Source of the DNA: Candidatus Zixiibacteriota bacterium
GTDB lineage: Bacteria > Zixibacteria > MSB-5A5 > GN15 > FEB-12
Direction of reading: 5' to 3'
Length of the DNA: 32,192 bases
Assembly (NCBI GenBank): GCA_024275255.1
Contig: JAJRZL010000330.1
Coordinates: 1-32,192, forward strand
Shown here: positions 2,937 through 23,675 of the stretch, one piece after another
Position numbering within the stretch: the stretch's first letter is position 1
Layout: every line of letters begins with the position of its first letter
The notes under the pieces: generated by a model
Database searches by the model: none
Seen by the model: only the letters and a program-made list of their open reading frames with translations
What the model was told of the DNA's origin: nothing
Program-made: the position numbers and the translations under genes

Positions 2937-3284
2937 TTACATAGTGAAGAACCGTTCACCTTTGATTATTTTCTCCAGCATAGCCAGTGTTTTTTCAACC
3001 GGTGCATGCATGAGATCAGCGGTGTTAAACGTTGTTTTCACTACTTCACGCGGACAAGTAAATCCTGTTCGTCCCCGTCCTCCCCGCGCTTTTTTCTTGT
3101 GGGTCAGGTTATACTGCCTTTGATACTCTTTCGCTTTCTCTTTGTGCATCTGGTAATAGCGCCTCTGATACTCACGCCGCGCTTCAGCAGTAGACAGTTT
3201 CCCTGTTTTCCTTTCTTTCACCTTTGTCTTTGTAGCAGGAGCCGTGGACTCATCGGCTTTATCAGTCCTTGAAACCCGAGCCAT
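2937..3284 (-). CDS. Small basic protein of unknown function with tandem REYQRRYYQMHKEKA/KEYQRQYNLTHKKKA repeats
   Basis: 115 aa ORF, ATG start with purine-rich upstream sequence; very Lys/Arg-rich; same strand as and directly upstream of ppdK. Confidence 0.65.
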   Translation of the reverse strand: MARVSRTDKADESTAPATKTKVKERKTGKLSTAEARREYQRRYYQMHKEKAKEYQRQYNLTHKKKARGGRGRTGFTCPREVVKTTFNTADLMHAPVEKTLAMLEKIIKGERFFTM

Positions 3285-3740: not shown

Positions 3741-4562
3741 TTATGCCTGGGTTTGTGCTTTCGACTTAGACGAAAAGTGCTGGACTATTTCTTTGATAAT
3801 ATAGACAACAATAATAAGCACCATTCCCCAGAAAACAACCAAAAACCAGTTGCTGTAATTCGGGTTTGGTTCCACTGTGGAGTTCCAGGCAACCTTCCCC
3901 CAATCATCGACATCCTGAATCCGGTTTACAAACAGGGAAATACGAGCCATAACCGTATAACCGAATGAGGCTCCAAATCCAATCATAAGGGTCCAGATTC
4001 CTAAATCAGCTACTCTGCCAAACCAGCCTTCATGAGCCTTGGAAAAGAAGAAATAGATAAGAGCGGAAATAACCCCAACGAAAATAATCAAGTTGGAAAG
4101 TCCGCTATATGGGTCAAGCAGGTTGAACCCGCCATGTCCCCAGAAATTATCAAAGCTCAGAGTCATGGTAGCATAGAGCTGTTTATTGATATAGGTGGAC
4201 ATTGTCAAGGGGATAGCAATACCGGTTGAAATACCGATATACATCGCCATGGGCCAGCGGGAGACCCAGGCATATTCTCTAGAAAATCTTGTCCACATGA
4301 GCATACCAAGAATAGCCGGCACAATGTACCAGGGCTCGGAGGAGTTTAACCAGAGATAATACCAGTCGCCATCGGCAAGCTTCTGAAAGAGATTGGGGAC
4401 CAAGCCATTGTGCCAAAGGATAATAACAAAGTACCCGGCAGAGACCCCGACCACAAGATGTTCAGCAAACTTGTAAAAAGGGTTATCCTTATACAGGAAG
4501 GAAAACGTTGCCAGTGTAACAAAGACCCCAAATGTCATCCACAAAAACGTAGTGAAATCCAT
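3741..4562 (-). CDS. Cassette 3, family D multi-TM membrane protein, unknown function
   Basis: 273 aa; contains SFLYKDNPFYKFAEHLVVGVSAGY and FFFSKAHEGWFG...GFGASFGYTVMARISL shared with 7724-8536 and 11435-12106. Confidence 0.88.
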   Translation of the reverse strand: MDFTTFLWMTFGVFVTLATFSFLYKDNPFYKFAEHLVVGVSAGYFVIILWHNGLVPNLFQKLADGDWYYLWLNSSEPWYIVPAILGMLMWTRFSREYAWVSRWPMAMYIGISTGIAIPLTMSTYINKQLYATMTLSFDNFWGHGGFNLLDPYSGLSNLIIFVGVISALIYFFFSKAHEGWFGRVADLGIWTLMIGFGASFGYTVMARISLFVNRIQDVDDWGKVAWNSTVEPNPNYSNWFLVVFWGMVLIIVVYIIKEIVQHFSSKSKAQTQA

Positions 4563-4567
4563 AACTC

Positions 4568-5446
4568 TTATACCTCCTCACGTTTCTTGCGGCGTTGACT
4601 GGCAAAGTACCCGATATTACCCATAATAATGAAAAAGATAATCACCAGGTGTGCAAACAACTGAACCCGCATACCATCGATAGCCCTACCGGGATTATCT
4701 GCCAGACTTTCATACTCAGCAGCGCCAAGCAACCCCCCCATAAGACCGAATATCTGACCGGAACCGAGATACGGATAATACTGGGCAGTCATAACTCCGG
4801 TTAACCCCAAAGCAAGGGGGAATCCAAACTTGCCCTGTCCGAAGGCAATCCAGGCATCGGTAATACTGCCTCCTGATAAGTCAATCACACATGCCACCTG
4901 GTCATAGTTGATAACCCCCTTCATCATCGGCAACGAATCCAGCGGGGTACCGTAATAATCATTCGGGAATGGTAATCGGAAATTTTGTCCCATACCAAGG
5001 ATAACCAGCCCATAGTAGGGTTTATACCCCAGGAAACAGTAATCGACACCGTTTTTGATTTCCCTTCCCTTATATAGCACGCCATTGTACTCTTTATCAA
5101 CCTTCATGGAATCGCTTATATCACGAATCGCCTGGTCAGCCATACCGGGACCGTTTTGTGATAATGCTGAAAATATCACTTTCAAGTTTTTTCGCCAACA
5201 GTGCTCGACTATCGCATAGGTCATGGGATGCAACTCGGCAAGGTTATTGGGATCATAATCTATGGCGATAAAAACGATATCTCCCGGCGGCAGGCTGTCA
5301 ATAAAGTCATAGATACTTCTCGTCTCATCCTCAATAAGAATAGGGATGGTGAACTTTGCTTTATAAGCCCAGACACAAATAATAACCAGCAGGAGAAATA
5401 TCCACCGACGATCCAGTTTCATAAATTTTTCAAATATACTATTCAT
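4568..5446 (-). CDS. Cassette 3, family C membrane-anchored protein with predicted extracytoplasmic domain, unknown function
   Basis: 292 aa; IDYDPNNLAELHPMTYAIVEHCW and GQIFGLMGGLLGAAEYE shared with 8536-9477 and 12141-13151; C-terminal TM. Confidence 0.88.
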   Translation of the reverse strand: MNSIFEKFMKLDRRWIFLLLVIICVWAYKAKFTIPILIEDETRSIYDFIDSLPPGDIVFIAIDYDPNNLAELHPMTYAIVEHCWRKNLKVIFSALSQNGPGMADQAIRDISDSMKVDKEYNGVLYKGREIKNGVDYCFLGYKPYYGLVILGMGQNFRLPFPNDYYGTPLDSLPMMKGVINYDQVACVIDLSGGSITDAWIAFGQGKFGFPLALGLTGVMTAQYYPYLGSGQIFGLMGGLLGAAEYESLADNPGRAIDGMRVQLFAHLVIIFFIIMGNIGYFASQRRKKREEV

Positions 5447-5458
5447 CAGTAGTCCTCC

Positions 5459-6274
5459 TTACCCTTTCCCCATGTAGCCGCGCTCAATTCCGAGGATTAC
5501 TTTCAGCGCTGTTGCAATCACACCCAAACCAATACCCATAACAATTGCTCGTTGGGCGGCAAGGTTGGGAACATTCATCAACCAGGTCGATGCCTTGGCA
5601 ACATATTCCGCACCCGGTATCCAGGGATTAAATCGTGACATCACCAGCAATGCTGCAAACAGCAGTAACGTGGCCATAAGATTACGTGCCCGGAAGGCGC
5701 GATATGCCGCGGAGGCAATGAAAAATGCCAGCAGGGCAAACATCGTTGACAGGATAGGAATCATGATATAATCGAAGAAATTTCTAAACAGGGTATTTTC
5801 AAGACCTTCTGAGGTATAAAAATGAAAGCTCCAGGTGTTATCGAATATGCTAATAGCCACTGTTGCAGCTAATAAAACAAGGGATACCACGAAGTACATC
5901 TTTTTCCTGCCGGTATTAGTCTCTGCACGAACCTGCATAATTGCCCCTAAACAAAGCAACCCAAGAATCCACCAGAGATGGTACAGTCCCCAGGCATCTC
6001 CATTTCGCTTTGTAAATCCAAAAGCAATCATGACAAACAGCCCGGCAAGAGTCACATACGAATACCCCCATCCGGGACGGTGCATTTTAATTTTATCAAC
6101 AGACACCTTAAACAGGGACCAGATACCCAGAGCAAGGGCAAAAATACCAATGATAATAGTCCATGCCAGGAAAAATTCATACACCCACTCAGATTTCTCA
6201 TGCGGTACGAAATACTGAAGCAGCATAAACATACCGAATATAAAAACTAAAACAAATGGTAATTCTCGCTTCAT
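5459..6274 (-). CDS. Cassette 3, family B multi-TM membrane protein, unknown function
   Basis: 271 aa; SAAYRAFRARNLMATLLLFAA and QRAIVMGIGLGVIATALKVILGIERGYMG shared with 9479-10156 and 13155-13805. Confidence 0.88.
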   Translation of the reverse strand: MKRELPFVLVFIFGMFMLLQYFVPHEKSEWVYEFFLAWTIIIGIFALALGIWSLFKVSVDKIKMHRPGWGYSYVTLAGLFVMIAFGFTKRNGDAWGLYHLWWILGLLCLGAIMQVRAETNTGRKKMYFVVSLVLLAATVAISIFDNTWSFHFYTSEGLENTLFRNFFDYIMIPILSTMFALLAFFIASAAYRAFRARNLMATLLLFAALLVMSRFNPWIPGAEYVAKASTWLMNVPNLAAQRAIVMGIGLGVIATALKVILGIERGYMGKG

Positions 6275-6288
6275 ATAATAAACTCCTC

Positions 6289-7698
6289 TTAACTGGTTAC
6301 ATGGAAAAATTCTGTAAACCAGGTGAACCCTAATACCGTTGCAATTATTCCCAGTATAGACAGAATAATGATAGCCGCTTTTGCATAATCCTGTGCCTTG
6401 AGCGAACCCAGCAGTATCGGTTCCCGACCAAGGTATGCTGAAGCGGCATATAATTCTTCACCAATTAATGTGTAGTCACAAGCCACAATAAAAAACGGCA
6501 TCTGGGCAATTTCATCTGTTCCGGAAATCTGAATCGAACCAGCTAACGCTCCCGTTTCAGCAAGAAGCAGCGATTCAGCATAGAACTTACCCATATATAC
6601 ATTTGTTGCCGGTAAATCACGTAACATGATTCCGTTCACAGCGGCAACATACGCAAACTGCGACTGGGTAACAAAGAATACCGAATCTTCTTTATATGTA
6701 TCAGCACGACCGGCATCATAATACGCAGATTTCACAACATCCTGGGCAACTGACATCACAATCGGATCATAAGTCGGAACGATGAGGTCTGTTTGGTATT
6801 CTGCAACCTTCTTTGCCACTCGCTGCAAAATTGTAAATGCTGCAATGGTAGCCACATCGGAAACAGAGCCCAAACCAAGAACATAGAGAATCGGCTTTCC
6901 CATCTCTGTAGCTCGTCCGATAGCATCGTCAACAGCTTCAATACCACCTATCGGGCGAACATAAATTTCTTTTCCCTTTCGAGCCAGCATGACAAAGTAA
7001 AGTATGAGCACTCCGAAAAGAATTACCGTGATAAGCACCGGTACTTGCTCAGTATTAAACCACTGACCATAACACTGTACCGGACCAACCACGACTGATG
7101 GTGTTTTCACCACGGAGTCGGCAGTGAGAGCATCCACACGATAATATAAGTCGGTATAGTCGGGAATATAGCCCTCGGCGAGCTTTTCTTTACTTCCCAA
7201 GTGTACATAGGTTTCAGTACCTGCCGGGACTTTGTCAACCAGTCGCCATTCTCCACCTTCAGGATACCCGGCATGTGCAACAGTTAACTGTTCCAATAAG
7301 ATATCATACTGATCTTTGAGTGTACGTATCTTTTTCTTCAGATCCTCACCGGTTTTTTTTCCACCATAAATGGCAGCACGCACCTGATCGATTTCGGAAC
7401 GCAGTTGCGCCATGGAATCGACCATGTTCGGTTCCCAGGTATAGATTTCGTAACCGATAACAGAATTGTTGCCTGCGCCATCATCGGCGGATTTTTTCCA
7501 TTTCAACGTAATAGAATGACCATGGTCATTTCTTGTATCAAATGCTTGTAAATCAGTAACCGGAGCGGGTGGGGGGATTGACTGGGATATGGTATCGATA
7601 TTCGCACTATCCGGGGGCACACCACTTTCCTGGGCGGTTGCCATACCACAAAGACAAAAAATGAAACCAAGAACAAAAAACCATTTATATAATGCCAT
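6289..7698 (-). CDS. Cassette 3, family A: signal peptide, FN3-like domain with coiled-coil insertion, TM, conserved cytosolic domain (DUF6754-like), C-terminal TM
   Basis: 469 aa; GGIEAVDDAIGRATEMGKPILYVLG...FFIVACDYTLIGEELYAASAYLGREPILLGSLKAQDYAKA shared with the two other family A proteins. Confidence 0.88.
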   Translation of the reverse strand: MALYKWFFVLGFIFCLCGMATAQESGVPPDSANIDTISQSIPPPAPVTDLQAFDTRNDHGHSITLKWKKSADDGAGNNSVIGYEIYTWEPNMVDSMAQLRSEIDQVRAAIYGGKKTGEDLKKKIRTLKDQYDILLEQLTVAHAGYPEGGEWRLVDKVPAGTETYVHLGSKEKLAEGYIPDYTDLYYRVDALTADSVVKTPSVVVGPVQCYGQWFNTEQVPVLITVILFGVLILYFVMLARKGKEIYVRPIGGIEAVDDAIGRATEMGKPILYVLGLGSVSDVATIAAFTILQRVAKKVAEYQTDLIVPTYDPIVMSVAQDVVKSAYYDAGRADTYKEDSVFFVTQSQFAYVAAVNGIMLRDLPATNVYMGKFYAESLLLAETGALAGSIQISGTDEIAQMPFFIVACDYTLIGEELYAASAYLGREPILLGSLKAQDYAKAAIIILSILGIIATVLGFTWFTEFFHVTS

Positions 7699-7723
7699 AT
7701 TCTTCTCCTTTTTGAGAAACGGC

Positions 7724-8536
7724 TCAACTTATCAAACTCAACCAGTCCTTAAATAAAAACGTTATGCGCCCAACAAGCAAGGAAATACGTCCCATAACAG
7801 TATATCCAAATGACGCACCGAATGTAATCATCAATATCCAGATACCTATCTTTGATGCTCCTCCAAATACTCCTTTATGTTCTTTGGAAAAGAAGAAATA
7901 GATAATACCACACAACACCCCGAAAAATATCACCCAGTTTGACAGCATTGCAACAAATTGTCCGGTTGAAGAAAGACTGAGATTGGAAAAGAAATGTCCA
8001 ATTCCCTGCCAATCCACCAGCAATGGGACAAATGTAGCCGATACCTGTTCGATAAAATCCGAGCGTAAGTAACGGATGAAGTTAAACCCGGCTGTTGTCC
8101 CGACAATAAATGCCAGGGGCCACCGTGAGACCCAGCCAACCTTTCGAGACAAACGCAGCAACAGCAAAATTCCAAGAAATACCGGCAAGAAATAAAAGGG
8201 GTTATACGATTCGGGATGATACGGGACTTTGAAATAATTTGACAATGTTTCCGAGACACGGGGAATCAAATTTCCGACGATAGTGCTCCAAAATCCCATC
8301 GACATCCAGAATGCCGCCGAAACACCGACAAAGAGATGCTCCGCAAACTTGTAAAACGGGTTATCCTTATAAAGAAACGAAAAAATGCACAACGTCAGAA
8401 ACGCAGCAAAGGTAATGGCAAACCCTTTGGCAATATAATGGTCGGTGGTGGAAGTCAATGACATTGATTTCAACACCCAACTGATGCCGAAAATCACTAT
8501 TGCCCCAACCATAACAAGGACTGTGGTTCGCTTCAT
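7724..8536 (-). CDS. Cassette 2, family D multi-TM membrane protein, unknown function (extra N-terminal TM)
   Basis: 270 aa; SFLYKDNPFYKFAEHLFVGVSAAF, FFFSKEHKGVFGGASKIGIWILMITFGASFGYTVMGRISLLVGRI; ATG overlaps upstream stop (TAATG). Confidence 0.88.
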   Translation of the reverse strand: MKRTTVLVMVGAIVIFGISWVLKSMSLTSTTDHYIAKGFAITFAAFLTLCIFSFLYKDNPFYKFAEHLFVGVSAAFWMSMGFWSTIVGNLIPRVSETLSNYFKVPYHPESYNPFYFLPVFLGILLLLRLSRKVGWVSRWPLAFIVGTTAGFNFIRYLRSDFIEQVSATFVPLLVDWQGIGHFFSNLSLSSTGQFVAMLSNWVIFFGVLCGIIYFFFSKEHKGVFGGASKIGIWILMITFGASFGYTVMGRISLLVGRITFLFKDWLSLIS

Positions 8537-9477
8537 TACTGACGGTCCTTTCGTTTTTTGATGAAAAACGATAAATTGCCAATAAGAATGAACGTAATAA
8601 TCACCATGTGTGCCAAAGTCTGCGGTCCCATCATCCGCAGACCGGGGGTATCGACATCCTTGAAACGGGGATAATTATGAATAAGCTCGGATTCATATTC
8701 CGCAGCGCCTTTTATTCCTCCCAATAATCCGAGTAATTGCTTGGGATAGTAAGGATACATCTGTGGCGCCACTACCGCTGCAACCCCACACGCCACCGGC
8801 ACTCTGCCCGGATCACCGACAAACAACACCCATTCTTTCACTCCCGGTTTTCCACCGCCGATAGAAACAATCAGGTCCACATCTTTACAGGAACTCACAT
8901 CATCGAGTGCAGGAATACTATCATACGGGATATTGTTGACATCGGTCGGAAACATTTTCTTGAAGTCGGAGATAATGACATTCAGCACCCCCTCGTTCCC
9001 GGCTTTATAGCCGAGGTTTACGTAATCGACTTCTTCTTTTTTATCAGGAAATTCTGTTTCCACCACATCACGCAACGTTTGGGTCAATAATGCCTGCCCG
9101 GTAGCAAACAACGACATGAAAATAATCTTGTGCCCTTTTACCAGACAATGCCGTGTAATAGCATTTGCCATCGGCTGCACTTCCGGAGCCATCGCCGGGT
9201 CAAAATCAAACGAGATTATTACTGTTGAGCCGGCAGGCAGAGATTCTATTTTATCATAGACCGCTTTTACAACCCTGGTTGCTTTCTCACCAAAGGTGAT
9301 GGGAAATAAAATCGGGGTAGCAACGGCAATAAAAATAAACAAGAAAATAACCCGTCTATCGACCTCTTTTCCCTTCAGTGCCCGGATAAAAAGCCAGAGC
9401 AATCCACCACCAATAATAACAAGCGAAATCGTCCTGCCAATATCGACCAGCGCTACCAATGGACCGGGGTAAAACAT
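8536..9477 (-). CDS. Cassette 2, family C membrane-anchored protein with predicted extracytoplasmic domain, unknown function
   Basis: FDFDPAMAPEVQPMANAITRHC and KQLLGLLGGIKGAAEYE motifs. ORF track starts at a TTG (9498); the internal ATG at 9477, just after the preceding stop, is the more likely start. Confidence 0.85.
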   Translation of the reverse strand: MFYPGPLVALVDIGRTISLVIIGGGLLWLFIRALKGKEVDRRVIFLFIFIAVATPILFPITFGEKATRVVKAVYDKIESLPAGSTVIISFDFDPAMAPEVQPMANAITRHCLVKGHKIIFMSLFATGQALLTQTLRDVVETEFPDKKEEVDYVNLGYKAGNEGVLNVIISDFKKMFPTDVNNIPYDSIPALDDVSSCKDVDLIVSIGGGKPGVKEWVLFVGDPGRVPVACGVAAVVAPQMYPYYPKQLLGLLGGIKGAAEYESELIHNYPRFKDVDTPGLRMMGPQTLAHMVIITFILIGNLSFFIKKRKDRQ

Positions 9478-9478
9478 A

Positions 9479-10156
9479 TCAGCTCTTATCCTCACCAAGA
9501 TAGGTTCGTTCGATTCCGAGAATAACCCGCAATGACATCGACACTACTCCTAACCCAATACCAATCATAATAGCCCGCTGACCGGCAAGGTTGGGAGCGT
9601 TCATAATCCATACCGCAAGGTTCGGAACCTGCAACACATCGAATGATTCCGGTATCCATCCGGTGACAACCGTCCCAAAAGGAGTGCGACCAAGCAAAAT
9701 AATAAAAGCAGCAATCAACAAAATCGTTGCTTCCCGGTTCTTCGCCCGGAATGCACGATATGATGCTGATGCGACAAAAAATGCCAGCAGGGAATACATC
9801 GTAGCACCAAGCGGGACCAGACAATAATCAAATATCTCCTGAAATAATGAACCGGCGGCTGTCGGAGCAGCAGCAATACCTCCGGGATTTCCTATTTTGA
9901 ATAACCCGATAACCAATGTGACTGCAAATCCAAGCAAAGTAACAATTGAATACTGCCAATCACGTTTCTGCCGAGTGAGTTTTGATACATGTACGCGGAG
10001 CAGATTTCCCCCACCGAGAAAGAAGGCAAACACAGCAATAATATCAAAGAAAACAGTAAAGTCTTCCCCCAGTGACTCCATCGGAGGAATAAAGACCGAG
10101 AAAATCAGCAACATCCCGATAAAGAATGTAATAAAGAGTGGTACTTCGCGTCTCAT
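9479..10156 (-). CDS. Cassette 2, family B multi-TM membrane protein, unknown function
   Basis: 225 aa; SASYRAFRAKNREATILLIAAF and GQRAIMIGIGLGVVSMSLRVILGIERTYLG. Confidence 0.88.
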   Translation of the reverse strand: MRREVPLFITFFIGMLLIFSVFIPPMESLGEDFTVFFDIIAVFAFFLGGGNLLRVHVSKLTRQKRDWQYSIVTLLGFAVTLVIGLFKIGNPGGIAAAPTAAGSLFQEIFDYCLVPLGATMYSLLAFFVASASYRAFRAKNREATILLIAAFIILLGRTPFGTVVTGWIPESFDVLQVPNLAVWIMNAPNLAGQRAIMIGIGLGVVSMSLRVILGIERTYLGEDKS

Positions 10157-10163
10157 TATCTCA

Positions 10164-11435
10164 TCACTGGGTTGAGAATATCGTGGTTAACATATCTTTT
10201 ACATCATTCATAAATTTCACATCCCAGGCATTGCCGATAGTAACTGCTATCACCCCCACAAGAATAACAATCATGGCAATCGCTTTCCCGACATCCTGTC
10301 CCTTCAGTGAACCAAGCGCTTTTGGTTCTCCGGAAAGGTATGCCGATGCTGCAAACAGTTCCTCTCCAATGAGAGTAAAGTCACACGCGGCAATAAAAAA
10401 CGGTAACTGTGCCGGACGGGCAGTACCGGCTATCTGAATAGCACCGATAGAATTGCCGGTTTCGGCAAGAATAAGTGACTCGGCAAAGAACGCACCCAGC
10501 AAAAAGACGGTCGCCGGTTTTTCACGTACCATGATACCATCAACAGCAGCGACATATCCGAACTGCTCATCAGTAACATACGAAACCATATCATCGCTGT
10601 ACTGGTCAGGCCGTCCGGCAGTCTGGTAGGCGGTCTTAATCGTTTCCCGGGCGGCAGTCATCACCAGTGACCGGGATACCGGCATCCGTATTTTCGTATC
10701 ATAATCGGCAATCTGGTGTGCCACCCGGCCCAAAATTGTAATTGCTGCCAGTGTCTGGACATCGTCCATATCGAGAATACCGGGGATATACAAAATCGGT
10801 CGCCCCATTTCAGTAGCACGGCCAATAGCCTCGTCTACCGCTTCCAACCCCGCAATTTTCCGTACAAATAGTTTTTTCCCGCGCCGAGCCGACTGGATAT
10901 AATAAATCACCGCCCCACCAATTATCAGTGCAAGGAGAAATAAATATCCTCGCCGAAAGTTAATCCATTCCCGTTGAGGTTGAACCGGTTCGGTGGTTGT
11001 TGATAAGACTTCGTCATCACTGGCAGAAACCGCCGCGACAATATAGCGATAGGTATCATGACGATTCAAATTCTTATCTGTAAACGAATTAGAACCGGGT
11101 GGCAGTTCAGCTATCAGTTCACGGGTGGAATCATTCGTAATCCGATACACCCGATAAACTGAAACTTTGCCGTCGATAAGCTGATCATCAATAGATGGCA
11201 CCCATGACAGGTTTAACTGTTCTCCATTGTCATATTTGTAGTCATCCACCAAAAGTGAAGTCACGGGCGCTACCGAGACACCAACCGTATCGGCAGTATT
11301 TACCAAAGTATCAGCTTGAACTTGTGGAGAAGGTTCGACAGAAAAAATACGGGAGCTACCAATAAATATAAACACCGAAAGAAACAGCGTCGTATGTATC
11401 AACAGGCGCAAAATTCTTTCTCCGGCAAGTAACAC
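10164..11435 (-). CDS. Cassette 2, family A: FN3-like domain, TM, DUF6754-like cytosolic domain, TM
   Basis: 423 aa, GTG start overlapping the stop of the preceding gene by one base (TAGTG); KKLFVRKIAGLEAVDEAIGRATEMGRPILYIPGI... Confidence 0.86.
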   Translation of the reverse strand: MLLAGERILRLLIHTTLFLSVFIFIGSSRIFSVEPSPQVQADTLVNTADTVGVSVAPVTSLLVDDYKYDNGEQLNLSWVPSIDDQLIDGKVSVYRVYRITNDSTRELIAELPPGSNSFTDKNLNRHDTYRYIVAAVSASDDEVLSTTTEPVQPQREWINFRRGYLFLLALIIGGAVIYYIQSARRGKKLFVRKIAGLEAVDEAIGRATEMGRPILYIPGILDMDDVQTLAAITILGRVAHQIADYDTKIRMPVSRSLVMTAARETIKTAYQTAGRPDQYSDDMVSYVTDEQFGYVAAVDGIMVREKPATVFLLGAFFAESLILAETGNSIGAIQIAGTARPAQLPFFIAACDFTLIGEELFAASAYLSGEPKALGSLKGQDVGKAIAMIVILVGVIAVTIGNAWDVKFMNDVKDMLTTIFSTQ

Positions 11436-12106
11436 TATTTAATCAACCCCAGCCAGTCTCCAAACAAAAAGTCAATACGTCCGATAAGAAGCGACATACG
11501 ACTCATCACGGTATAGCCAAACGATGCTCCGAAAGTAATCATAATAACCCAAATACCTACTTTCGCGGTAGCACCAAAGGCGCCCCGATGTTCCTTCGAG
11601 AAAAAGAAATATACCAGACCGGCAAAGGTTCCGCCAACAATAACAATATTACCGATTATCTCATATACCGATGCCCCGTATCCAATACCGAACAAGGGAA
11701 TAATTGTCCCCTGCACCTGCCGCATAATGTTCGATGAGAAGTAATTCATTAAGTATAACCCGGAAGTACACCCGACAATAAACGCCAGGGGCCAGCGGGA
11801 AATCCAACCGACACCGGGAAGCAGACGGGCAAGCATCAAAACACCGAGTACCGCACCTACAATCAGGGCATAATCCGGGACGCCATGGCTGACAAAGTTA
11901 CCTGCTTCATCGACAACATCGGGAGGAAACACTCCCACCCAGAACTTGCCGTAAATATTATCCCAGAACAACACCACAAACCAGTACCCGGCAGAAATAC
12001 CGACAAAAATTGCCTCACTGAGTTTGTACCACGGATTATCCTTATACAGAAAGGAGATAATCCCCAAAGTGAGAAAAGCGGCTATCCAAACAGCAACATG
12101 TTCCAT
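11435..12106 (-). CDS. Cassette 1, family D multi-TM membrane protein, unknown function
   Basis: 223 aa; SFLYKDNPWYKLSEAIFVGISAGYW, FFFSKEHRGAFGATAKVGIWVIMITFGASFGYTVMSRMSLLIGRI. Confidence 0.88.
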   Translation of the reverse strand: MEHVAVWIAAFLTLGIISFLYKDNPWYKLSEAIFVGISAGYWFVVLFWDNIYGKFWVGVFPPDVVDEAGNFVSHGVPDYALIVGAVLGVLMLARLLPGVGWISRWPLAFIVGCTSGLYLMNYFSSNIMRQVQGTIIPLFGIGYGASVYEIIGNIVIVGGTFAGLVYFFFSKEHRGAFGATAKVGIWVIMITFGASFGYTVMSRMSLLIGRIDFLFGDWLGLIK

Positions 12107-12140
12107 AATAATTCGTACCGTTGACCGATTGTGTTACTCT

Positions 12141-13151
12141 CTACAGTTTCTTTTTCCTACCACTCTTAAAATAAGCGACGTTCCCGATAATAATAAAGGC
12201 AATCACAATCATGTGAGCGAATGATTGTGAGAGCATAAATTTAGTACCCTTCCCAATTTCGTTCGTCACTAACTCAAACTCCGCAGCACCGTTCATCCCG
12301 CCCAGCAGCCCGACAAGCTGCCCGGCATTGAGGTAGGTGTACATCATCGGGGCTTGAACCGCGGTATTCCCCGCTCCCATTTTCAGCCCGTAGCGATCAA
12401 CCGCCACCTGCACCCACTCCTGCGTTCCGGGATACCCGGCAGAAAGATTGAATGAATAATCTATATTGGAAAAGTTCTTTACATTACGAACAAGCGGTAA
12501 ATCATCGTAAACCGTACCGGAATAATCTTTCGGGAACATCGACTTGAAATCAGTTCCCATGCGCTGAATAACAAATTCGTTACCAACCTGGAATCCAAGA
12601 TTGACATAATCGACCCCATACTCCGGCTTTTTCGCCGCCACTTCTTTGCTCTTCAGTGCATCTTCAAGTGCAAGATTAGCTTGCTGAGGCCCCTGCGGCC
12701 AAAGTCCAATGATGATTACTTTCAAATCATGCGACAGACAATACCGTAAAAAGGCAACTGCCATCGGTTGCAGTTCCGGCGCTGAGGGTGGATCATAATC
12801 AAACGATACAAGCACTTTTGACCCGGGTTGCAATTCACTGAGCGCATCATAGAGCTGCTGTACTTCGGGAGAAACACGGAACTTTAATGTCAAGGTCATA
12901 AAGAACGGCAATACAACCGCCAACCCGACGAATAAAAATACTGTCCGCCGCCCGATAAGATGCCCCTGCAAAGTCCGCAACAGGATGTATAGCAACAACA
13001 GAAAAATAACGATAACAACCGTAAGCGATACTGCGGGAGAGAACATCAGACCATTATTCCATCCCTGTATCTTCCCTATATACACAATAACAGAAATGAC
13101 AAGTATTAGTATGACCACTGCCAGTTCACGTATTCTTGTCGTAGAACTCAT
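12141..13151 (-). CDS. Cassette 1, family C membrane-anchored protein with predicted extracytoplasmic domain, unknown function
   Basis: 336 aa; VSFDYDPPSAPELQPMAVAFLRYC and GQLVGLLGGMNGAAEFE; N-terminal TMs and one C-terminal TM followed by KSGRKKKL. Confidence 0.88.
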   Translation of the reverse strand: MSSTTRIRELAVVILILVISVIVYIGKIQGWNNGLMFSPAVSLTVVIVIFLLLLYILLRTLQGHLIGRRTVFLFVGLAVVLPFFMTLTLKFRVSPEVQQLYDALSELQPGSKVLVSFDYDPPSAPELQPMAVAFLRYCLSHDLKVIIIGLWPQGPQQANLALEDALKSKEVAAKKPEYGVDYVNLGFQVGNEFVIQRMGTDFKSMFPKDYSGTVYDDLPLVRNVKNFSNIDYSFNLSAGYPGTQEWVQVAVDRYGLKMGAGNTAVQAPMMYTYLNAGQLVGLLGGMNGAAEFELVTNEIGKGTKFMLSQSFAHMIVIAFIIIGNVAYFKSGRKKKL

Positions 13152-13154
13152 TGA

Positions 13155-13805
13155 CTAATCTCCCCCTCCCAGATGCGAGCGTTCGATACCAAGAATTATC
13201 CGCAACGAAGTCGAAACTAAACCAAGGGCAATTCCTATCATAATAGCACGTTGTCCTGCTGTTTGTGGGAACGTCATAATCCAGCTTGCCACTTGCGAGA
13301 GCTGGTATTGCTGCGGCAGGAACCCGGTAATAATATCACCGACCGGAACACGACCAAGCATGACAAAAAACGCTGACAGAAGCAGCAAAGTAGCTTCAAA
13401 ATTACGTGCCCGGAACGCCCGGTACGATGCCGAGGCAACAAAAAAGGCAAGAATGGCAAACATCGTTGCCGAAAGAGGACTATACACATAATCATATAAC
13501 CATGAGAATGTAGTGCCCGGTTCACGGAACCCCTGTCCTTCGGCAAAACCGATAATAGTAATCACGAAAAACGAGATGATAATAACAAGAGCAAAAAACC
13601 AATCCGATTTCTTATCCATTATCTTCTGAAAAGAAATTTTCAGCAGGTTCAATGCTCCCAGCCAGATAGCAAACGCCCCGACAATCGAGAACCAGTCGGA
13701 GAACCAAGTGTTCATTTTGTTAAATGGGGCATGAGGGATAAAATATTGCAGCACAAATACAATTCCGGTAATAGCAGTAATCAGAAGTGGAATCTCTCGT
13801 CGCAT
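13155..13805 (-). CDS. Cassette 1, family B multi-TM membrane protein, unknown function
   Basis: 216 aa; SASYRAFRARNFEATLLLLSAF and GQRAIMIGIALGLVSTSLRIILGIERSHLG. Confidence 0.88.
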   Translation of the reverse strand: MRREIPLLITAITGIVFVLQYFIPHAPFNKMNTWFSDWFSIVGAFAIWLGALNLLKISFQKIMDKKSDWFFALVIIISFFVITIIGFAEGQGFREPGTTFSWLYDYVYSPLSATMFAILAFFVASASYRAFRARNFEATLLLLSAFFVMLGRVPVGDIITGFLPQQYQLSQVASWIMTFPQTAGQRAIMIGIALGLVSTSLRIILGIERSHLGGGD

Positions 13806-13808
13806 ACG

Positions 13809-15092
13809 TTATTCCCCTATCACCTTGAACAAAGACGAAAATTGCCAGATATGAAACGTTTCGAGAATAGTCCCTACCAACAGGGAAATGAGTATCAGGG
13901 CTTTTCCGACATCCTGCCCTTTCAGGCTTCCGAGAAGTTTCGGTTCACGAGATAAATATGCCGATGCTGCGAACAGTTCCTCTCCTATGAGAGTGTAGTC
14001 ACACGCGGCAACAAAGAATGGCAACTGTGATGGCATGGCAGTACCGGAAATCTGGATAGCACCGATAGAGTTACCTGTTTCCGCTAAAATCAACGACTCG
14101 GCATAGAAAGCGCCCATGTAAAAAATAGTAGCCGGTCGTTCCCGAACAACCATTCCGTCAATACCTGCCGCATAGCCAAACTGGTCGTCAGTCAAATAAT
14201 GAACCTGGTCTTCACGAAACGCATCCGGGCGTCCAACTTTGGAATAGGCTTCCTTGACAATTTCCTTGGCGGTAACCAACACTAATGAACGGGAAACCGG
14301 AACCTCCAGCCAGGTATCATACTGGGCGGCAATTTCCGCTACTCGCCCCAATATGGTAACCCCGGCAATGGTCTGAACATTGTCCATATCCTGTGTACCG
14401 GGGATATAAAAGATTTTCTTCCCCATTTCCGTTGCCCGCCCGACCGCTTCATCAACAGCTTCCAGACCGGCAATCTTACGAATAAAGAGTTTTTTCCCTG
14501 ATTGTGCCTGATAAATATAATAAAGTATAAAAAACGATAGCAGTACCACTCCGACAAAAACATTGATACGCTGAAAATTGAACCATTGTGCTGAAGAACT
14601 CACCTCATCGCTGACACTTGATTGCACTGTAGTCGTCACAACCGTTGTATCATCGACTTTCAACTCATACACGGCTTCCACTTTATATACATACGTAGAA
14701 TCATCATCCGTCGAACCATCGGAAAACACCGTTGCCCGGTTGGTTGCTTCACCAACGAAGATAAACTCTCCCGGCACACTATTCTCCACTGAAGCCCGCA
14801 ATATACGGTATTTTTGAATCACCGCATTTTCGAGAACCGGTTGCTCTTCCCACCTGATAGTAACAGAACCGCCCGCATCATCAGGTGTATCTTTCACTTC
14901 TATATGTATTGGTGGTTTTAGCTGGATAGAATCCGGGATTGCAGTGCCCGGTGGGACTGATGATTCCTGCTGCGCAACACTTTCAGGCGGTAAGTACAAC
15001 AGGCCCAAAAGGATAAACAGACAAATCGACAGCATCCCGGTTTTGAATGCTATCGATTGTTCTTGCTGCATATTCAAGTTACTAATTCCCAA
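13809..15092 (-). CDS. Cassette 1, family A: signal peptide, FN3-like domain, TM, DUF6754-like cytosolic domain, TM
   Basis: 427 aa from TTG at 15092 (alternative ATG at 15071); KKLFIRKIAGLEAVDEAVGRATEMGKKIFYIPGTQ...FFVAACDYTLIGEELFAASAYLSREPKLLGSLKGQDVGKAL. Confidence 0.87.
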   Translation of the reverse strand: MGISNLNMQQEQSIAFKTGMLSICLFILLGLLYLPPESVAQQESSVPPGTAIPDSIQLKPPIHIEVKDTPDDAGGSVTIRWEEQPVLENAVIQKYRILRASVENSVPGEFIFVGEATNRATVFSDGSTDDDSTYVYKVEAVYELKVDDTTVVTTTVQSSVSDEVSSSAQWFNFQRINVFVGVVLLSFFILYYIYQAQSGKKLFIRKIAGLEAVDEAVGRATEMGKKIFYIPGTQDMDNVQTIAGVTILGRVAEIAAQYDTWLEVPVSRSLVLVTAKEIVKEAYSKVGRPDAFREDQVHYLTDDQFGYAAGIDGMVVRERPATIFYMGAFYAESLILAETGNSIGAIQISGTAMPSQLPFFVAACDYTLIGEELFAASAYLSREPKLLGSLKGQDVGKALILISLLVGTILETFHIWQFSSLFKVIGE

Positions 15093-15410: not shown

Positions 15411-16799
15411 TTAAGATTCTTTAATAGCTTCAATAAGCTCAACAATTGCTTTTTTACCGTCATTAAAGAACATCAAGGTATTGTCTTTGGCGAAAAGCGG
15501 GTTTGGTATTCCCGCAAAACCGGGACTCAAACTCCGTTTAATCACCACCACATACCGTGCTTTATCGACATCAAGAATCGGCATCCCGGCAATTGGAGAG
15601 TTGCTGTCTTCACGTGCTACCGGGTTAACCACATCGTTGGCACCAATAACAATCGCAACATCTGTTTGCTGGAAGGTCGGATTAATTTCATCCATTTCTT
15701 TCAGCTTATCATATTCAACATTTGCTTCAGCAAGCAGCACATTCATGTGACCGGGCATACGTCCTGCAACCGGGTGAATAGCAAACTCCACCTCAATACC
15801 TTTACTTTCGAGAAGATTCGCCAAATCCCGTACGGCATGTTGTGCCTGAGCCACTGCCATACCATACCCCGGAACAATAACGACACGTCGAGCACCATCA
15901 AAGAGCATAGCAATCTCATCAGCGGAAGTAGCTTTAATCTTCCCTTCGTACACTTCATCAGATGTTTGTGCGCTCTCCCCGGGTTCCATAATTCCAAACA
16001 GCACATTCGTCAGGGAACGATTCATCGCCTTACACATGATATTGGTGAGAATCACCCCCGATGCTCCAACGAGTGAACCGGCAATAATGAGCACATTATT
16101 TCCCAGTACAAACCCGGTTGCCGCCGCCGCCAAACCGGAATACGAGTTTAACAATGCGATAACAACCGGCATATCAGCTCCCCCGATGGGAATAACCAAT
16201 AAAATACCGAGAGCTGATGCCACACCGACCAGAATCCAGTAGGTGTTTGTCAACTCAGGGTTTAATACCAGCCACACCGCCAGTCCAACCGAAACAATTC
16301 CCAGTACAACCTTGAGAAACTGCTGCCCCGGCAGGACAATTGATTTTTCTGTCATCACTCCCTGCAACTTGGCAAATGCGACCAAACTTCCCCAGAACGT
16401 AACAGCCCCGATAATACCGGAAGCCCCGGTTGCTATGGTGAACTCTGTTTGCGGGTGAACTCCTGCAATTATCAACTCAATCAATGCGGCACCGGCAACA
16501 AAAACCGAGGCGCCGCCACCAAAACCGTTAAACAATGCCACCATCTGCGGCATAGCTGTCATCTGAATTTTAACAGCAAAGATAGCGCCAATAGCAGAGC
16601 CGACGACAAGACCTATCAAGATTATCTCGAAACTGATAATCCGCTGATCCCATAAGGTCACGACAATAGCCAAAAGCATACCCATGGCGCCAAGGAGATT
16701 CCCTCTGACAGCCGTCCGTGGATGAGTTAACCCTTTCAGTCCCATGATAAACAGGACCGAGGCTACTAAATACGCTATATTAACAACTGAAACCGGCAT
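15411..16799 (-). CDS. pntB: NAD(P) transhydrogenase subunit beta
   Basis: 462 aa; GFGGGASVFVAGAAL, VPGYGMAVAQAQHAVRDLANLLESKGIEVEFAIHPVAGRMPGHMNVLLAEANVEYDKL, GANDVVNPVAREDSNSPIAGMPILDV, typical of PntB. Confidence 0.97.
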   Translation of the reverse strand: MPVSVVNIAYLVASVLFIMGLKGLTHPRTAVRGNLLGAMGMLLAIVVTLWDQRIISFEIILIGLVVGSAIGAIFAVKIQMTAMPQMVALFNGFGGGASVFVAGAALIELIIAGVHPQTEFTIATGASGIIGAVTFWGSLVAFAKLQGVMTEKSIVLPGQQFLKVVLGIVSVGLAVWLVLNPELTNTYWILVGVASALGILLVIPIGGADMPVVIALLNSYSGLAAAATGFVLGNNVLIIAGSLVGASGVILTNIMCKAMNRSLTNVLFGIMEPGESAQTSDEVYEGKIKATSADEIAMLFDGARRVVIVPGYGMAVAQAQHAVRDLANLLESKGIEVEFAIHPVAGRMPGHMNVLLAEANVEYDKLKEMDEINPTFQQTDVAIVIGANDVVNPVAREDSNSPIAGMPILDVDKARYVVVIKRSLSPGFAGIPNPLFAKDNTLMFFNDGKKAIVELIEAIKES

Positions 16800-16802
16800 A
16801 TA

Positions 16803-17084
16803 TCAGTCTTTCTTTCGAAACATTTTTAACATTCGATGGGTTACTAAAAAGCCACCCACTACATTAATGGTTGCAAACACCACCGCCGCCAATCCTAATA
16901 CCGTGGTCAATGTACTATGCTGTGACCCAGCGGAAATCAGCGCACCAATTAATGTTATACCGGAAATCGCATTCGAACCCGACATCAACGGTGTATGCAA
17001 TGTCGGTGGGACCTTGGTTATAATCTCGAACCCGACAAAAATAGCCAGGACAAAGATGGTAATAACCATAACGATTGAATCCAT
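16803..17084 (-). CDS. pntAB: NAD(P) transhydrogenase subunit alpha, membrane part (PntAB-type)
   Basis: 93 aa hydrophobic protein with VPPTLHTPLMSGSNAISGITLIGAL, between pntAA and pntB. Confidence 0.95.
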   Translation of the reverse strand: MDSIVMVITIFVLAIFVGFEIITKVPPTLHTPLMSGSNAISGITLIGALISAGSQHSTLTTVLGLAAVVFATINVVGGFLVTHRMLKMFRKKD

Positions 17085-17102
17085 CGACTCCTACTCCTCT
17101 AT

Positions 17103-18293
17103 CTATGAGCCCGACGTTTCTGTTTTGCCGGACAATTCCTTAACACGTTCGTTGACAACCTCTCCCTTTATCGTCAGGAGGGTTTCTTTTATAATTTCAT
17201 CTTCAAGACTCGGTTCCAGTCCGCCGTTTGCCATCAGATGTTTAATAAACGCATGAAGATTACGGGAATACATCTGGCTGGCATGATACGGAATCGTTGC
17301 CGGCAGATTAATCGGTCCCAGGATGGTAACACCATCAATGGTAACCGTTTCGCCGACTTTTGTCAGTTCACAGTTCCCCCCTCGCTCCGCTGCCAAATCA
17401 ACAATTACCGAGCCGGAAGGCATAGCGGCAACCATTTCTTTTGTAATCAAAATAGGCGCTTTTTTGCCGGGAATCGCTGCCGTAGTAATCACGACATCAC
17501 TTTCCGCAACCACACCGGTCATCATTTCCCGCTGTCGCCGGTAGAAATCCTCGTCTGCAGCTTTGGCATACCCGCTTTTATCTTCCGCATCCTCGGTAGT
17601 GAGCTCCAATTCGACAAACTTGGCTCCCAGACTTTCAACCTGTTCTTTTACCGCCGGACGGACATCATACGCTTTCACTACGGCTCCCAACCGTCGGGCA
17701 GTGGCAATTGCCTGCAATCCGGCAACCCCGGCACCGACCACAAAGACATGTGCCGGCGATATGGTCCCCGCCGCAGTCATCAAAAGCGGAAACATCTTCG
17801 GACAGGTATCTGCCGCCATCAATACCGCTTTATACCCCGCTATGGTAGCCATCGAGGACAGGGCATCCATGCTCTGGGCACGGGTAATTCGGGGTAACAA
17901 CTCAATGGCAAAACTGGTAATTCCCGTGGAGCTGATTTCTTTTACTATGTCAGCCCGGGTAAGAGGATCGAAATGACCGACAAGAAGCTGCCCGGAACGG
18001 AGAAGCGACATATCCGACTTTCCGGCATCGGGATTGGCTCCCCCGGCACGAACCATCAGGATAATATCGCTGACCTGAAACAACTCCGACCGCTCAGCAA
18101 CGATCCGCCCACCTTTTTTGACATACGCCTCATCAGGAAACCCGGCAGCAACTCCGGCACCCGATTCCAGCACCGTTTCAAGTCCCATTTTGCCGAATAA
18201 GCCAACTGTTTCGGGAACAATTGCCACCCGCGATTCCCCCGGAAATGTCTCACGGGGTACTCCTATGATAACTTTTTTCTCCTCGTCAGCCAT
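17103..18293 (-). CDS. pntAA: NAD(P) transhydrogenase subunit alpha, soluble NAD-binding part (PntAA-type)
   Basis: VIIGVPRETFPGESRVAIVPETV, VFVVGAGVAGLQAIATARRLGAVVKAYDVRPAVKEQVESLGAKF; ATG at 18293 (MADEEKK) preferred over ORF-track start 18302. Confidence 0.96.
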   Translation of the reverse strand: MADEEKKVIIGVPRETFPGESRVAIVPETVGLFGKMGLETVLESGAGVAAGFPDEAYVKKGGRIVAERSELFQVSDIILMVRAGGANPDAGKSDMSLLRSGQLLVGHFDPLTRADIVKEISSTGITSFAIELLPRITRAQSMDALSSMATIAGYKAVLMAADTCPKMFPLLMTAAGTISPAHVFVVGAGVAGLQAIATARRLGAVVKAYDVRPAVKEQVESLGAKFVELELTTEDAEDKSGYAKAADEDFYRRQREMMTGVVAESDVVITTAAIPGKKAPILITKEMVAAMPSGSVIVDLAAERGGNCELTKVGETVTIDGVTILGPINLPATIPYHASQMYSRNLHAFIKHLMANGGLEPSLEDEIIKETLLTIKGEVVNERVKELSGKTETSGS

Positions 18294-18565
18294 ATACTCC
18301 AATTCCTGAATAAGGTCCTCTCAGTATGCTTTTATTCTCTTTTTCAATCATGTTATAACAACCAATCTGCTAAAGAGTGCCCAAAAAAACAAAAAAGTTC
18401 CCTTTCTTGCCCTATCACTCCATTATTTCACAGGCAGATATTGATTTTGCTGGTCTATGTATACCACATTAAAGAGCGTACCGCAACCATATTTATTTTC
18501 CTGTTTTCCCGGATTCTTCACCAAAATGCAGGCAAAGGCAATACCCGCACAGCAGAATACTCCTG

Positions 18566-20910: not shown

Positions 20911-21477
20911 TCAAGTACGGTGTATTGCTTGTATCACTATCCCTTTTTGTTGCTCAAGGACACAAACCTGTTCACAAATTCCACAACCGGTACAGACATC
21001 TTCAATAATAATAGGGCGGTTAAACTTGATTTTGATAGCACTGCGTTTAAGCGGACAAGCGTCAAAACAAGTGATACATTGACTCCCATTATATGCCAGG
21101 CACCTATCTTCTACAATATGAGCTGTCCCGATTCTGGGGAATTGTTTATCTGCCGGCATCACCAGTGCTCCCTCCGGGCAGGCATTTGTACAGGGCAGGT
21201 CCTCGCACATCACACAGGCTTTTTCAGATGGCACAATAGTCGGGAGTTTTTTCCCACTGATTTCATCCAGTACAAGTTTGATTGCCTGTTCAGGACAGGC
21301 AGCTATGCAATCCCCACAGGAAGTACATCGGTTGGGATAATTGGCTATAGCTCCCGGCGGAAAAATCGGTCGGGGAATATTCTTCACTTCATCGGGTATG
21401 CGGTTACTGATAGCCTGTGCCATCGCTCCGCTGAGAATCTTCCAGGACCGTTTCAAAAAGTTAGATCGTGTTACCAT
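20911..21477 (-). CDS. NapF/NapG-like polyferredoxin (4Fe-4S clusters)
   Basis: CTSCGDCIAACP, CVMCEDLPCTNACP, CTGCGICEQVC clusters; ATG at 21477 (MVTRSNFLKR) preferred over ORF-track start 21495. Confidence 0.85.
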   Translation of the reverse strand: MVTRSNFLKRSWKILSGAMAQAISNRIPDEVKNIPRPIFPPGAIANYPNRCTSCGDCIAACPEQAIKLVLDEISGKKLPTIVPSEKACVMCEDLPCTNACPEGALVMPADKQFPRIGTAHIVEDRCLAYNGSQCITCFDACPLKRSAIKIKFNRPIIIEDVCTGCGICEQVCVLEQQKGIVIQAIHRT

Positions 21478-21612
21478 GAAACCATAACAATTCAAGTGTC
21501 ATGTCGGGTACTGTAGTACCTATCGGTTATCTTACTGTAAAATCTATATGTATTCTCCCGCTATATCAATAGAATCACGTCGAAACAAACATGATATTCA
21601 CGTTTCTCAGGG

Positions 21613-21641
21613 GTGTGACAAAAGATTATCTTTTGCCACAC
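21613..21641 (-). terminator. Hairpin downstream of napB, possible terminator
   Basis: GTGTGaCAAAAG-ATTAT-CTTTTGcCACAC (one mismatch), 18 nt past the napB stop. Confidence 0.55.
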
Positions 21642-21658
21642 TTCAACATTGTTACTAT

Positions 21659-22039
21659 TTAACGTGTCGGGATGTATTTCTTAAACGTATTCTCTACGGT
21701 AAAGTCCTGATCGGTTGCTGATTCATTATTCATGGGAATATGGCACTGCAAGCAATTGTACCGTTCCGGGTGTGTTGTCTGGGGGGTGTCTTTTTCGTCT
21801 TTATTATCATGACAATCGAGACATGCCTGACCACCGTTTTCAAAACTGTTGATATCTTCGTTGACATCAAACGGGTGATCTTTTGGAATCATGGGCGGTG
21901 CTCCCAATAAAGCGACATTGGGTTGTTTCGCTTCTTCAAGGGCAGTCTGCTGGGCTTCTGTTAACGGTATGTTTTCACCCTTCTGCTGACAACCAAGGAA
22001 CAGCACGAATAAAACCAATAACAGGATTACAACTCTCAT
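21659..22039 (-). CDS. napB: NapB-type diheme cytochrome c, predicted lipoprotein
   Basis: Two CXXCH motifs (CLDCH, CLQCH), PPMIPKDHPF, lipobox-like VLFLGC, next to napH. Confidence 0.88.
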   Translation of the reverse strand: MRVVILLLVLFVLFLGCQQKGENIPLTEAQQTALEEAKQPNVALLGAPPMIPKDHPFDVNEDINSFENGGQACLDCHDNKDEKDTPQTTHPERYNCLQCHIPMNNESATDQDFTVENTFKKYIPTR

Positions 22040-22041
22040 CG

Positions 22042-22947
22042 CTATTTCTCCTTTATATGTTTTATACCTATTTTCAAAGCATCTTCAGGACAAATGTCCA
22101 CGCAGTTCAAGCAATTCGTACAACTGCTGCCGATCCAGGTTTCTTCACCACGAACAGGCTTGCTCAGGACTTCCGATGGTACACAAACCTCAAAGCACTC
22201 ACCACATTTAGTACAGGCAGCATGCGAAATCCTGATTCTCAGCGGCGATAGTTTTCCGACCAGGCTGTACAATGTCCCCACCGGGCAGATAAACCGGCAC
22301 CACCACCCGCGACTGACAAAGATATCAACCAGTAAAAGAATCACGAGAATCCACAGCGAATAGTTAAATAATACCCGCCATGAATCGGAAGTGGTCCCGG
22401 CAAAATTGTCAGCATACCGGTCATTACTATCTGTTTGTTCCTTCGCGCGCTCTGAGCCGAAAATTCCCTGCGGAGCATCAATCCCCAGGGCAATATTTTG
22501 AGAAACAATACCGATAGGCGATACTGTCTCAAAAACCGGTTTCGCGGTAACCAGGCTGAGTAACAGGACTGTTCCCAAAATCCAATACCGAGTGGTAGAT
22601 TTTGGCTTATACTGGAACACATGCAGTTTTGTATGCAGTTTCCTTACCATCTCAGTCAGTAAATAAACCGGACAGACCCATCCACAGAAAACCCGCCCGC
22701 CAAGAAGCAGGTAGAATACAAGAACTATTACGGCTCCCATCAACACGGGCAGGTACACAGCTTTTGTTGCCAGGATAAAATCAATCGCCGCCAGTGGATC
22801 AGTAAGCTGCACACCAAGCAAAGTCCCGGAAATAAGCGTTCCTCGGAATAGCTTTAATCCTAACAACGGCGATACCAGCAGGAATATCACAAATAATTGT
22901 ACAAACCTGCGAAGTATTTTCCGGCGATTGTTACGTATCCACGACAT
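22042..22947 (-). CDS. napH: NapH-type membrane ferredoxin/quinol dehydrogenase
   Basis: Multi-TM with FCGWVCPVYLLTEMVRK, WCRFICPVGTLYSLVGKLSPLRIRI, and CTKCGECFEVC / CTNCLNCVDICP ferredoxin motifs. Confidence 0.94.
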   Translation of the reverse strand: MSWIRNNRRKILRRFVQLFVIFLLVSPLLGLKLFRGTLISGTLLGVQLTDPLAAIDFILATKAVYLPVLMGAVIVLVFYLLLGGRVFCGWVCPVYLLTEMVRKLHTKLHVFQYKPKSTTRYWILGTVLLLSLVTAKPVFETVSPIGIVSQNIALGIDAPQGIFGSERAKEQTDSNDRYADNFAGTTSDSWRVLFNYSLWILVILLLVDIFVSRGWWCRFICPVGTLYSLVGKLSPLRIRISHAACTKCGECFEVCVPSEVLSKPVRGEETWIGSSCTNCLNCVDICPEDALKIGIKHIKEK

Positions 22948-23594
22948 CAGGATTGCTGCTCCCTGAGATAAAAGTAATGTCCGGCTTTGTCACCACGTTC
23001 AGAAGGAATCACTCGGATTGCAGTCTCATCAAGCGGGCAGGCATTTTCACAAATCCCGCACCCGGTACAAAAGTCCTTGTGAATCACCGGCTCGAACACA
23101 GTATGCCGATGGGTAATTGCCTGCTCCTGTTTGTTCAGGGTAATGGCTTTATCTATCAGCGGGCAAACCCGGTAACAGATTTCACAGCGTATCCCATTCA
23201 ACGACAAACAGGCTTCCCGGTCGGTTATGACCGCGGTACCGATGTTCATCTTGTTTACATCAGTAAGTGAATGGTCCAGTGCATCGGTTGGACAGGCAGC
23301 GATACAAGGCAAATCTTCGCACATGTAACAAGGGACAGAGCGGAACGTTATATAAGGTGTTCCGACACTGATACCATCCCGTATATCAGCCAACACAAGG
23401 GTGTCATACGGGCAATCCTGTACACATTTTCCGCATCGAATACAAGCAGCGAGGAACTCATCTTCTGGCAACGCTCCCGGAGGACGGAAATAAATTTCCC
23501 TGCTGCGTCCCATAAGATTCACCAGTGAAAACCCGCCGACAGTTCCGATTGCGGTAATAACGAATCCTTTCTTTATGAATTCGCGTCTGTCCAT
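22947..23594 (-). CDS. napG: NapG-type ferredoxin with twin-arginine signal
   Basis: MDRREFIKKGFVITAIGTVGG (Tat), CIRCGKCVQDCP, CYMCEDLPCIAACP, CTGCGICENACP; overlaps napH start. Confidence 0.93.
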   Translation of the reverse strand: MDRREFIKKGFVITAIGTVGGFSLVNLMGRSREIYFRPPGALPEDEFLAACIRCGKCVQDCPYDTLVLADIRDGISVGTPYITFRSVPCYMCEDLPCIAACPTDALDHSLTDVNKMNIGTAVITDREACLSLNGIRCEICYRVCPLIDKAITLNKQEQAITHRHTVFEPVIHKDFCTGCGICENACPLDETAIRVIPSERGDKAGHYFYLREQQS

Positions 23595-23620
23595 ACTATT
23601 ACATTATACTGTTTTCAAAA

Positions 23621-23664: not shown

Positions 23665-23675
23665 GTTTTCCTTCA

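Follow-up and report, generated by a model that had tools for sequence, protein, structure and literature searches.

Relation to described systems

The closest described relatives of the system considered here are scattered over several protein families. The system is a four-gene membrane cassette, A-B-C-D, found in three consecutive copies in the window, by which we mean the whole 32,192-nucleotide stretch of DNA analysed from Candidatus Zixiibacteriota bacterium, a member of the uncultured phylum Zixibacteria (assembly GCA_024275255.1, contig JAJRZL010000330.1, positions 1 to 32,192). Family A is a full-length member of DUF6754 (PF20539), a Pfam entry that gives no function and that leaves B, C, D, the cassette and its partners outside. 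The GlmL family (TIGR01319, NF040745; PF13941) provides the nearest relative of an ATPase that is encoded beside the cassette in several phyla. This linked ATPase likewise covers the whole of PF13941 and carries both ASKHA phosphate motifs, but it falls below both NCBIfam cut-offs, is longer (about 620 amino acids) and is genetically linked to membrane cassettes, with no recognisable mutase gene among its annotated neighbours. A barrel protein accompanying the ATPase is similar to the RnfC and NqrA peripheral subunits in that it is soluble, contains a barrel-sandwich domain and is linked to a polytopic membrane complex; the membrane chains of the cassette, by contrast, are unrelated by sequence to those of Rnf and Nqr, and no cysteine is conserved in any of B, C and D. 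In type IV pili and type II secretion, PilM and GspL are actin-fold cytosolic proteins that serve an inner-membrane assembly, and the pairing of an ASKHA ATPase with a membrane cassette may be likened to them by analogy; no Pfam or NCBIfam match to parts of either apparatus was found among the proteins scanned.

On present evidence, the A-B-C-D system matches no known kind, and only A had previously been named, as a domain of unknown function. An earlier, sequence-only reading of the window could attach no known pathway to it, a view that held when sequence searches, together with fold searches for A and C, found no characterised complex. A literature search that took in few subscription papers and no preprints found no mention or description of DUF6754 or of the cassette, and nothing relevant on PF20539, PF13941 or GlmL. 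The explanation that we favour, with a probability of about 0.45, is that A, B, C and D form an obligate inner-membrane complex that exists in five versions, is worked by a shared cytosolic ATPase and adaptor, and carries out envelope work for version-specific clients.

A twelve-gene array of four protein families

The array consists of twelve consecutive minus-strand open reading frames (15092-3741) in the strict order A-B-C-D, three times over, with coordinates and strand confirmed. The intergenic distances of -20 to +34 bp are consistent with a single operon. All-against-all BLASTP resolved the twelve proteins into exactly four families, with E values of 1e-28 to 1e-125 among the paralogues of a family and nothing significant between families (best E 0.024), so that the homology goes beyond generic transmembrane (TM) segments, the point that the alignment check proposed with the sequence-only reading was meant to settle. 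Identity within families is 49% for A, 35-47% for B, 35-39% for C and 40-48% for D. Both the threefold order and the view of the copies as diverged paralogues are thereby borne out, and recent duplication is ruled out by the 35-49% identity and by the existence of orthologous classes across the phylum. The genes, with the classes (c1 to c3) discussed below, are as follows.

13809 to 15092, minus strand: A1, 427 amino acids, TTG start; signal or TM segment, fn3-like ectodomain, TM segment, predicted cytosolic DUF6754, TM segment; PF20539 E 1.5e-125; class c1
13155 to 13805, minus strand: B1, 216 amino acids; membrane protein with about 6 TM segments, family B; no Pfam or PDB relative
12141 to 13151, minus strand: C1, 336 amino acids; TM-anchored, predicted extracytoplasmic alpha/beta domain, family C
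11435 to 12106, minus strand: D1, 223 amino acids; about 5-6 TM segments, SFLYKDNPxYK motif; no Pfam or PDB relative
10164 to 11435, minus strand: A2, 423 amino acids; DUF6754, PF20539 E 2.9e-123; weak fn3 match in the ectodomain (E 0.0012); class c2
9479 to 10156, minus strand: B2, 225 amino acids; family B; class c2
8536 to 9498, minus strand: C2, 320 amino acids; family C; class c2
7724 to 8536, minus strand: D2, 270 amino acids; N-terminal extension or extra TM segment typical of class c2
6289 to 7698, minus strand: A3, 469 amino acids; DUF6754, PF20539 E 3.5e-116; longer ectodomain; class c3
5459 to 6274, minus strand: B3, 271 amino acids; internal insert, family profile matching in two stretches
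4568 to 5446, minus strand: C3, 292 amino acids; family C; class c3
3741 to 4562, minus strand: D3, 273 amino acids; extra C-terminal TM segment; class c3

Co-occurrence and orthologous classes

The genome to which the window belongs, a draft of 338 contigs, contains two more complete cassettes on separate contigs (C216 and C335), which brings the total to five; the A proteins of these two have 303 and 275 amino acids and lack the outer domain. DUF6754 was detected in all 133 genomes of the phylum that were examined, mostly with 4-6 matches each, and in none of 14 control genomes. The scoring of co-occurrence and copy number proposed with the sequence-only reading gave a consistent picture. 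With split matches of one B gene joined before counting, B, C and D have the same copy number as one another in every one of the 20 near-complete phylum genomes (5 in most, with two genomes at 4, one at 3 and one at 2), and the count of A agrees with them in 17. The other three genomes, all from a single family of the same order, have A doubled inside one cassette of class c4, giving a tandem A-A-B-C-D with two DUF6754 genes to one each of B, C and D; this arrangement was directly observed in L115 and L117 and is also present in G056 C53. The multi-cassette array is a phylum-wide feature and not a local oddity.

With regard to loci from other genomes, A is followed by B-C-D for 81 of the 83 A genes with room downstream, the two A genes without B-C-D (L019, L024) being located in chromosomes that are metagenome-assembled genomes (MAGs). 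A total of 113 full cassettes were found in 76 loci, with median gaps of 12, 0 and 1 bp from A to D. Their organism titles span more than a dozen named phyla, including Fermentibacterota, Stahliibacteriota, Cloacimonadota, Planctomycetota, Latescibacterota, Fidelibacterota, Calditrichota, Coatesiibacteriota and Poribacteria, and a few MAG titles are doubtful, such as that of an Armatimonadetes-titled locus which groups with Cloacimonadota in the tree.

In a tree of concatenated A-B-C-D sequences, cassettes 1, 2 and 3 of the window group with the equivalent cassettes of other Zixibacteria rather than with each other, while the two distal cassettes represent two further phylum-wide classes (c4 and c5 beside c1-c3). 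Each of the five cassettes thus stands for an old orthologous class that has kept its own A, B, C and D. Two loci with two cassettes (L028, L030) pair type 1 with type 3, a pattern that a loss of type 2 would produce, and the D protein of class c2 is lengthened in all nine genomes compared (269-292 amino acids, against 209-223 in c1). The pairwise distances of the four subunit trees correlate with r of 0.69-0.78, whereas shuffling of cassettes within genomes gave means of 0.26-0.35 and a maximum of 0.56; this agreement shows that the cassettes are inherited as units, contact between subunits not being proven by agreement alone. The sequence-only reading had proposed an obligate unit in three non-redundant versions: copy number, gene order and tree agreement uphold the unit, and the versions number five, not three.

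In several families of the phylum, class c5 cassettes (L007:3103-6001 and the c5 loci L110-L126) are divergent from a carbohydrate ABC importer, represented by binding-protein and permease genes. Class c4 cassettes (L006:11861-14050 and the c4 loci) have a sugar nucleotidyltransferase gene downstream, often with metK, and in several loci a phosphosugar isomerase-like gene upstream.

Subunit anatomy, predicted structure and conservation

The sequence-only reading had likened the cytosolic domain of A to DUF6754, and PF20539 was indeed found in all three A proteins of the window at the E values given above, over the full 257 profile positions and with 387-418 bits against a cut-off of 27. The ectodomain of A resembles fn3 domains, the family profile matching titin fn3 chains with E 5.5e-25; the Pfam fn3 profile is matched in A2 only, at 19.4 bits and below its cut-off of 25. 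As judged by length, this ectodomain is absent from most class c4 and c5 A proteins. B, C and D have no match above cut-off in Pfam or NCBIfam, nor a PHROG, PADLOC or PDB family, and family-wide Pfam scans of the three gave scattered weak matches only. No solved PDB chain shows a convincing sequence relationship to B, C, D or the ATPase partner.

Confident structures were predicted for DUF6754 with its TM helices (A1 residues 160-427; mean predicted local distance difference test score, pLDDT, of 93) and for the C1 domain (residues 60-336; mean pLDDT 94.8). A PDB fold search with these two returned generic alpha/beta hits only (TM-scores of 0.2-0.5), which were counted as no match. Homology between B and D, and between the alpha/beta domains of A and C, was rejected, as profile comparison gave probabilities of 0.7% and 3.9%, respectively.

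Counts of lysine and arginine beside the TM segments suggest that DUF6754 is cytosolic (4.6 on its side, 1.8 on the other) and that the C domain is extracytoplasmic, with 1.5 and 1.8 on the side of the domain and 3.7 and 4.3 on the opposite one. Across 112 cassettes, mean identity amounts to 61% in DUF6754, which retains more than 15 fully invariant polar residues, to 28% in the outer part of A and to 40-48% in B, C and D. A single cysteine is conserved in A and none in the other three subunits.

A linked ATPase and barrel protein

The four-gene picture of the sequence-only reading stands as far as the A-B-C-D unit is concerned, but a shared ATPase and a barrel protein also appear to belong to the system. 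Directly upstream of A in several phyla, among them Fermentibacterota, Planctomycetota and Zixibacteria, lie genes for a MutL/GlmL-like ASKHA ATPase (about 620 amino acids) and a barrel protein (about 375 amino acids), sometimes preceded by two small proteins. In two Fidelibacterota (Marinimicrobia) loci, the two are fused into a protein of 993-999 amino acids directly before A (L077:6927-9926 and L094:2-2983). The linked ATPase matches PF13941 (Pfam MutL) over the whole profile with E 6e-128 and remains below the curated GlmL cut-offs (173.4 against 204.05 bits for TIGR01319; 229.2 against 475 bits for NF040745). The ASKHA phosphate-1 and phosphate-2 motifs, DCGSTTTK and DIGGATTD, are invariant or at least 90% conserved in 12 sequences, and the protein is a predicted ATPase on the strength of these motifs. 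With regard to the barrel protein, the one encoded in a Gimesia locus scores 28.9 bits against RnfC_N (Pfam cut-off 25.6) and matches NqrA_N weakly.

The partners are found in fewer copies than the cassettes. A MutL-like ATPase is present in 124 of 133 phylum genomes, usually once, and the barrel gene occurs once per genome in 18 of the 19 tested. A WOR-3 chromosome encodes six DUF6754 proteins, one MutL-like ATPase and one barrel protein; in one WOR-3 genome, the ATPase and barrel genes are unlinked to the cassette but present elsewhere.

ExbB and ExbD genes neighbour cassette or partner loci in several phyla. The barrel gene of the window's genome heads an ExbB-ExbD-TonB-like-TolB-like run at a contig end (L104:349-5262). 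In Stahlbacteria/WOR-3 (L051:3037-8318, L055, L058), A-B-C-D is followed by a DUF4388 protein, a protein that is roadblock-like by eye, two small membrane proteins and ExbB-ExbD-ExbD-TonB.

Other genes of the window

Just downstream of D3, positions 2937-3284 encode a small Lys/Arg-rich protein of 115 amino acids that no family profile matches above cut-off. A three-gene proton-translocating transhydrogenase (PntAA, PntAB with 4 TM segments, PntB; 15411-18302) is encoded immediately upstream of the operon and on the same strand. A periplasmic nitrate reductase-like cluster at 20911-26547, judged by eye from the open reading frames, comprises a molybdopterin oxidoreductase, two ferredoxin-type proteins and NapH-like, small c-type cytochrome-like and NapD-like proteins.

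Proposed mechanism and alternative explanations

In the favoured model, A, B, C and D would be four subunits of one inner-membrane complex with B and D as its membrane core. C would present its alpha/beta domain outside the cytoplasm, while A would have its fn3-like domain on the outer side and its highly conserved alpha/beta domain, DUF6754, in the cytosol. Zixibacteria possess five diverged versions, three from the operon in the window and two from elsewhere, which differ mainly in the outer part of A and in their accessory TM segments. All versions would be served by one soluble module, composed of the ASKHA ATPase and the RnfC_N-like barrel adaptor and sometimes fused, which would dock on their conserved cytosolic DUF6754 face and drive or reset them by ATP hydrolysis. 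The output would be work in the diderm envelope, either transport or assembly, across the inner membrane, and the client would differ from one version to the next. One module serving several complexes would explain why the cytosolic face of DUF6754 is the most conserved part, why a single ATPase and barrel protein accompany multiple cassettes, and why the outer parts diverge between classes. Of the separate elements of this model, a physical A-B-C-D complex is strongly suggested by the gene-level evidence, coupling of the ATPase to the cassettes is suggested by gene linkage, and an envelope role would be in keeping with the location in the membrane, with the outer domains and with the ExbB/ExbD neighbours. 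In more general terms, and slightly more tentatively, the system may be an unrecognised ATP-driven inner-membrane machine, core to Zixibacteria and common to many diderm phyla, in which one GlmL-like ASKHA ATPase and a barrel adaptor power several paralogous four-subunit complexes. The reality of the A-B-C-D system is independent of the mechanism proposed for it.

Several observations weigh against this model. No MutL-like ATPase was found in the window's own draft genome; ATPase and barrel genes are not adjacent to the cassette in Cloacimonadota, Stahlbacteria and some other loci; the proximity of ExbB, TonB and TolB genes may be incidental; and the agreement of the subunit trees could partly come from linkage without recombination rather than from contact. 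As to the first of these, the barrel gene of that genome, whose product is 69% identical to a distant barrel protein, is only 119 bp away from a contig end at which a MutL gene would be expected, and the ATPase gene may lie in the assembly gap beyond.

The low conservation of the outer parts (28% identity) relative to the cytosolic domain (61%) would also suit a transmembrane sensor, in which the fn3-like domain of A and the outer domain of C read envelope signals, DUF6754 relays them to MutL and the barrel protein, and five versions correspond to five signals; the DUF4388 gene directly after D in Stahlbacteria points the same way. We consider this unlikely, given that two polytopic subunits at fixed stoichiometry exceed the needs of known one-component sensors and that no kinase, cyclase or DNA-binding partner is linked among the annotated neighbours. 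Somewhat less probable still is an accidental linkage, with MutL acting only as a cobalamin-enzyme chaperone in the manner of GlmL and the cassettes working without it. MutL is unlinked in several phyla and is related to GlmL (TIGR01319, NF040745), a family annotated as accessory to glutamate mutase, but its scores lie below the GlmL cut-offs, and the MutL-barrel-A linkage recurs in several phyla, fusion included.

The neighbours of the distal classes bring up sugar or glycan handling, in which the versions would move or sense sugar intermediates at the membrane. Most of the families checked have class c5 in divergent orientation to a sugar ABC importer, c4 has the nucleotidyltransferase and phosphosugar isomerase-like genes already described, and several SIS proteins that bind phosphosugars are among the weak fold hits of DUF6754. 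Nevertheless, these hits are not significant (no E below 0.001, TM-score about 0.33), no sugar-type neighbours were recognised beside c1-c3 and neighbour retention may be simple synteny, which leaves this explanation improbable. A respiratory-type, ion-pumping complex resembling Rnf/Nqr, in which the barrel protein would take the role of RnfC or NqrA, is brought to mind by the RnfC_N and NqrA_N matches of the Gimesia protein; it seems very unlikely, since the cysteine pattern leaves no shared iron-sulfur ligands, no Rnf/Nqr chain in the PDB is related by sequence to B or D, and the linked enzyme resembles an ATPase. Anti-phage defence was rejected: PADLOC recognised 0 families for 10 proteins, no match was found in plasmid, phage or viral collections, and the distribution is that of core chromosomal genes.

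Significance

The cassette has the appearance of a hitherto undescribed component of the basic machinery of the cell envelope. Its order recurs in more than a dozen further named phyla, including the Planctomycetota, of which cultured and genetically tractable members exist. A genome-wide transposon screen is available for one of them, Planctopirus limnophila, the text of that paper making no mention of glutamate mutase or fibronectin (PMC10632474). From the system, an apparent role also emerges for a group of orphan ASKHA ATPases matching Pfam MutL, a family named for a glutamate mutase accessory protein. Furthermore, genes without known function that are both conserved and multiplied, and that are missing from all 14 control genomes, point to a basic process of diderm cells that has been hidden in model organisms.

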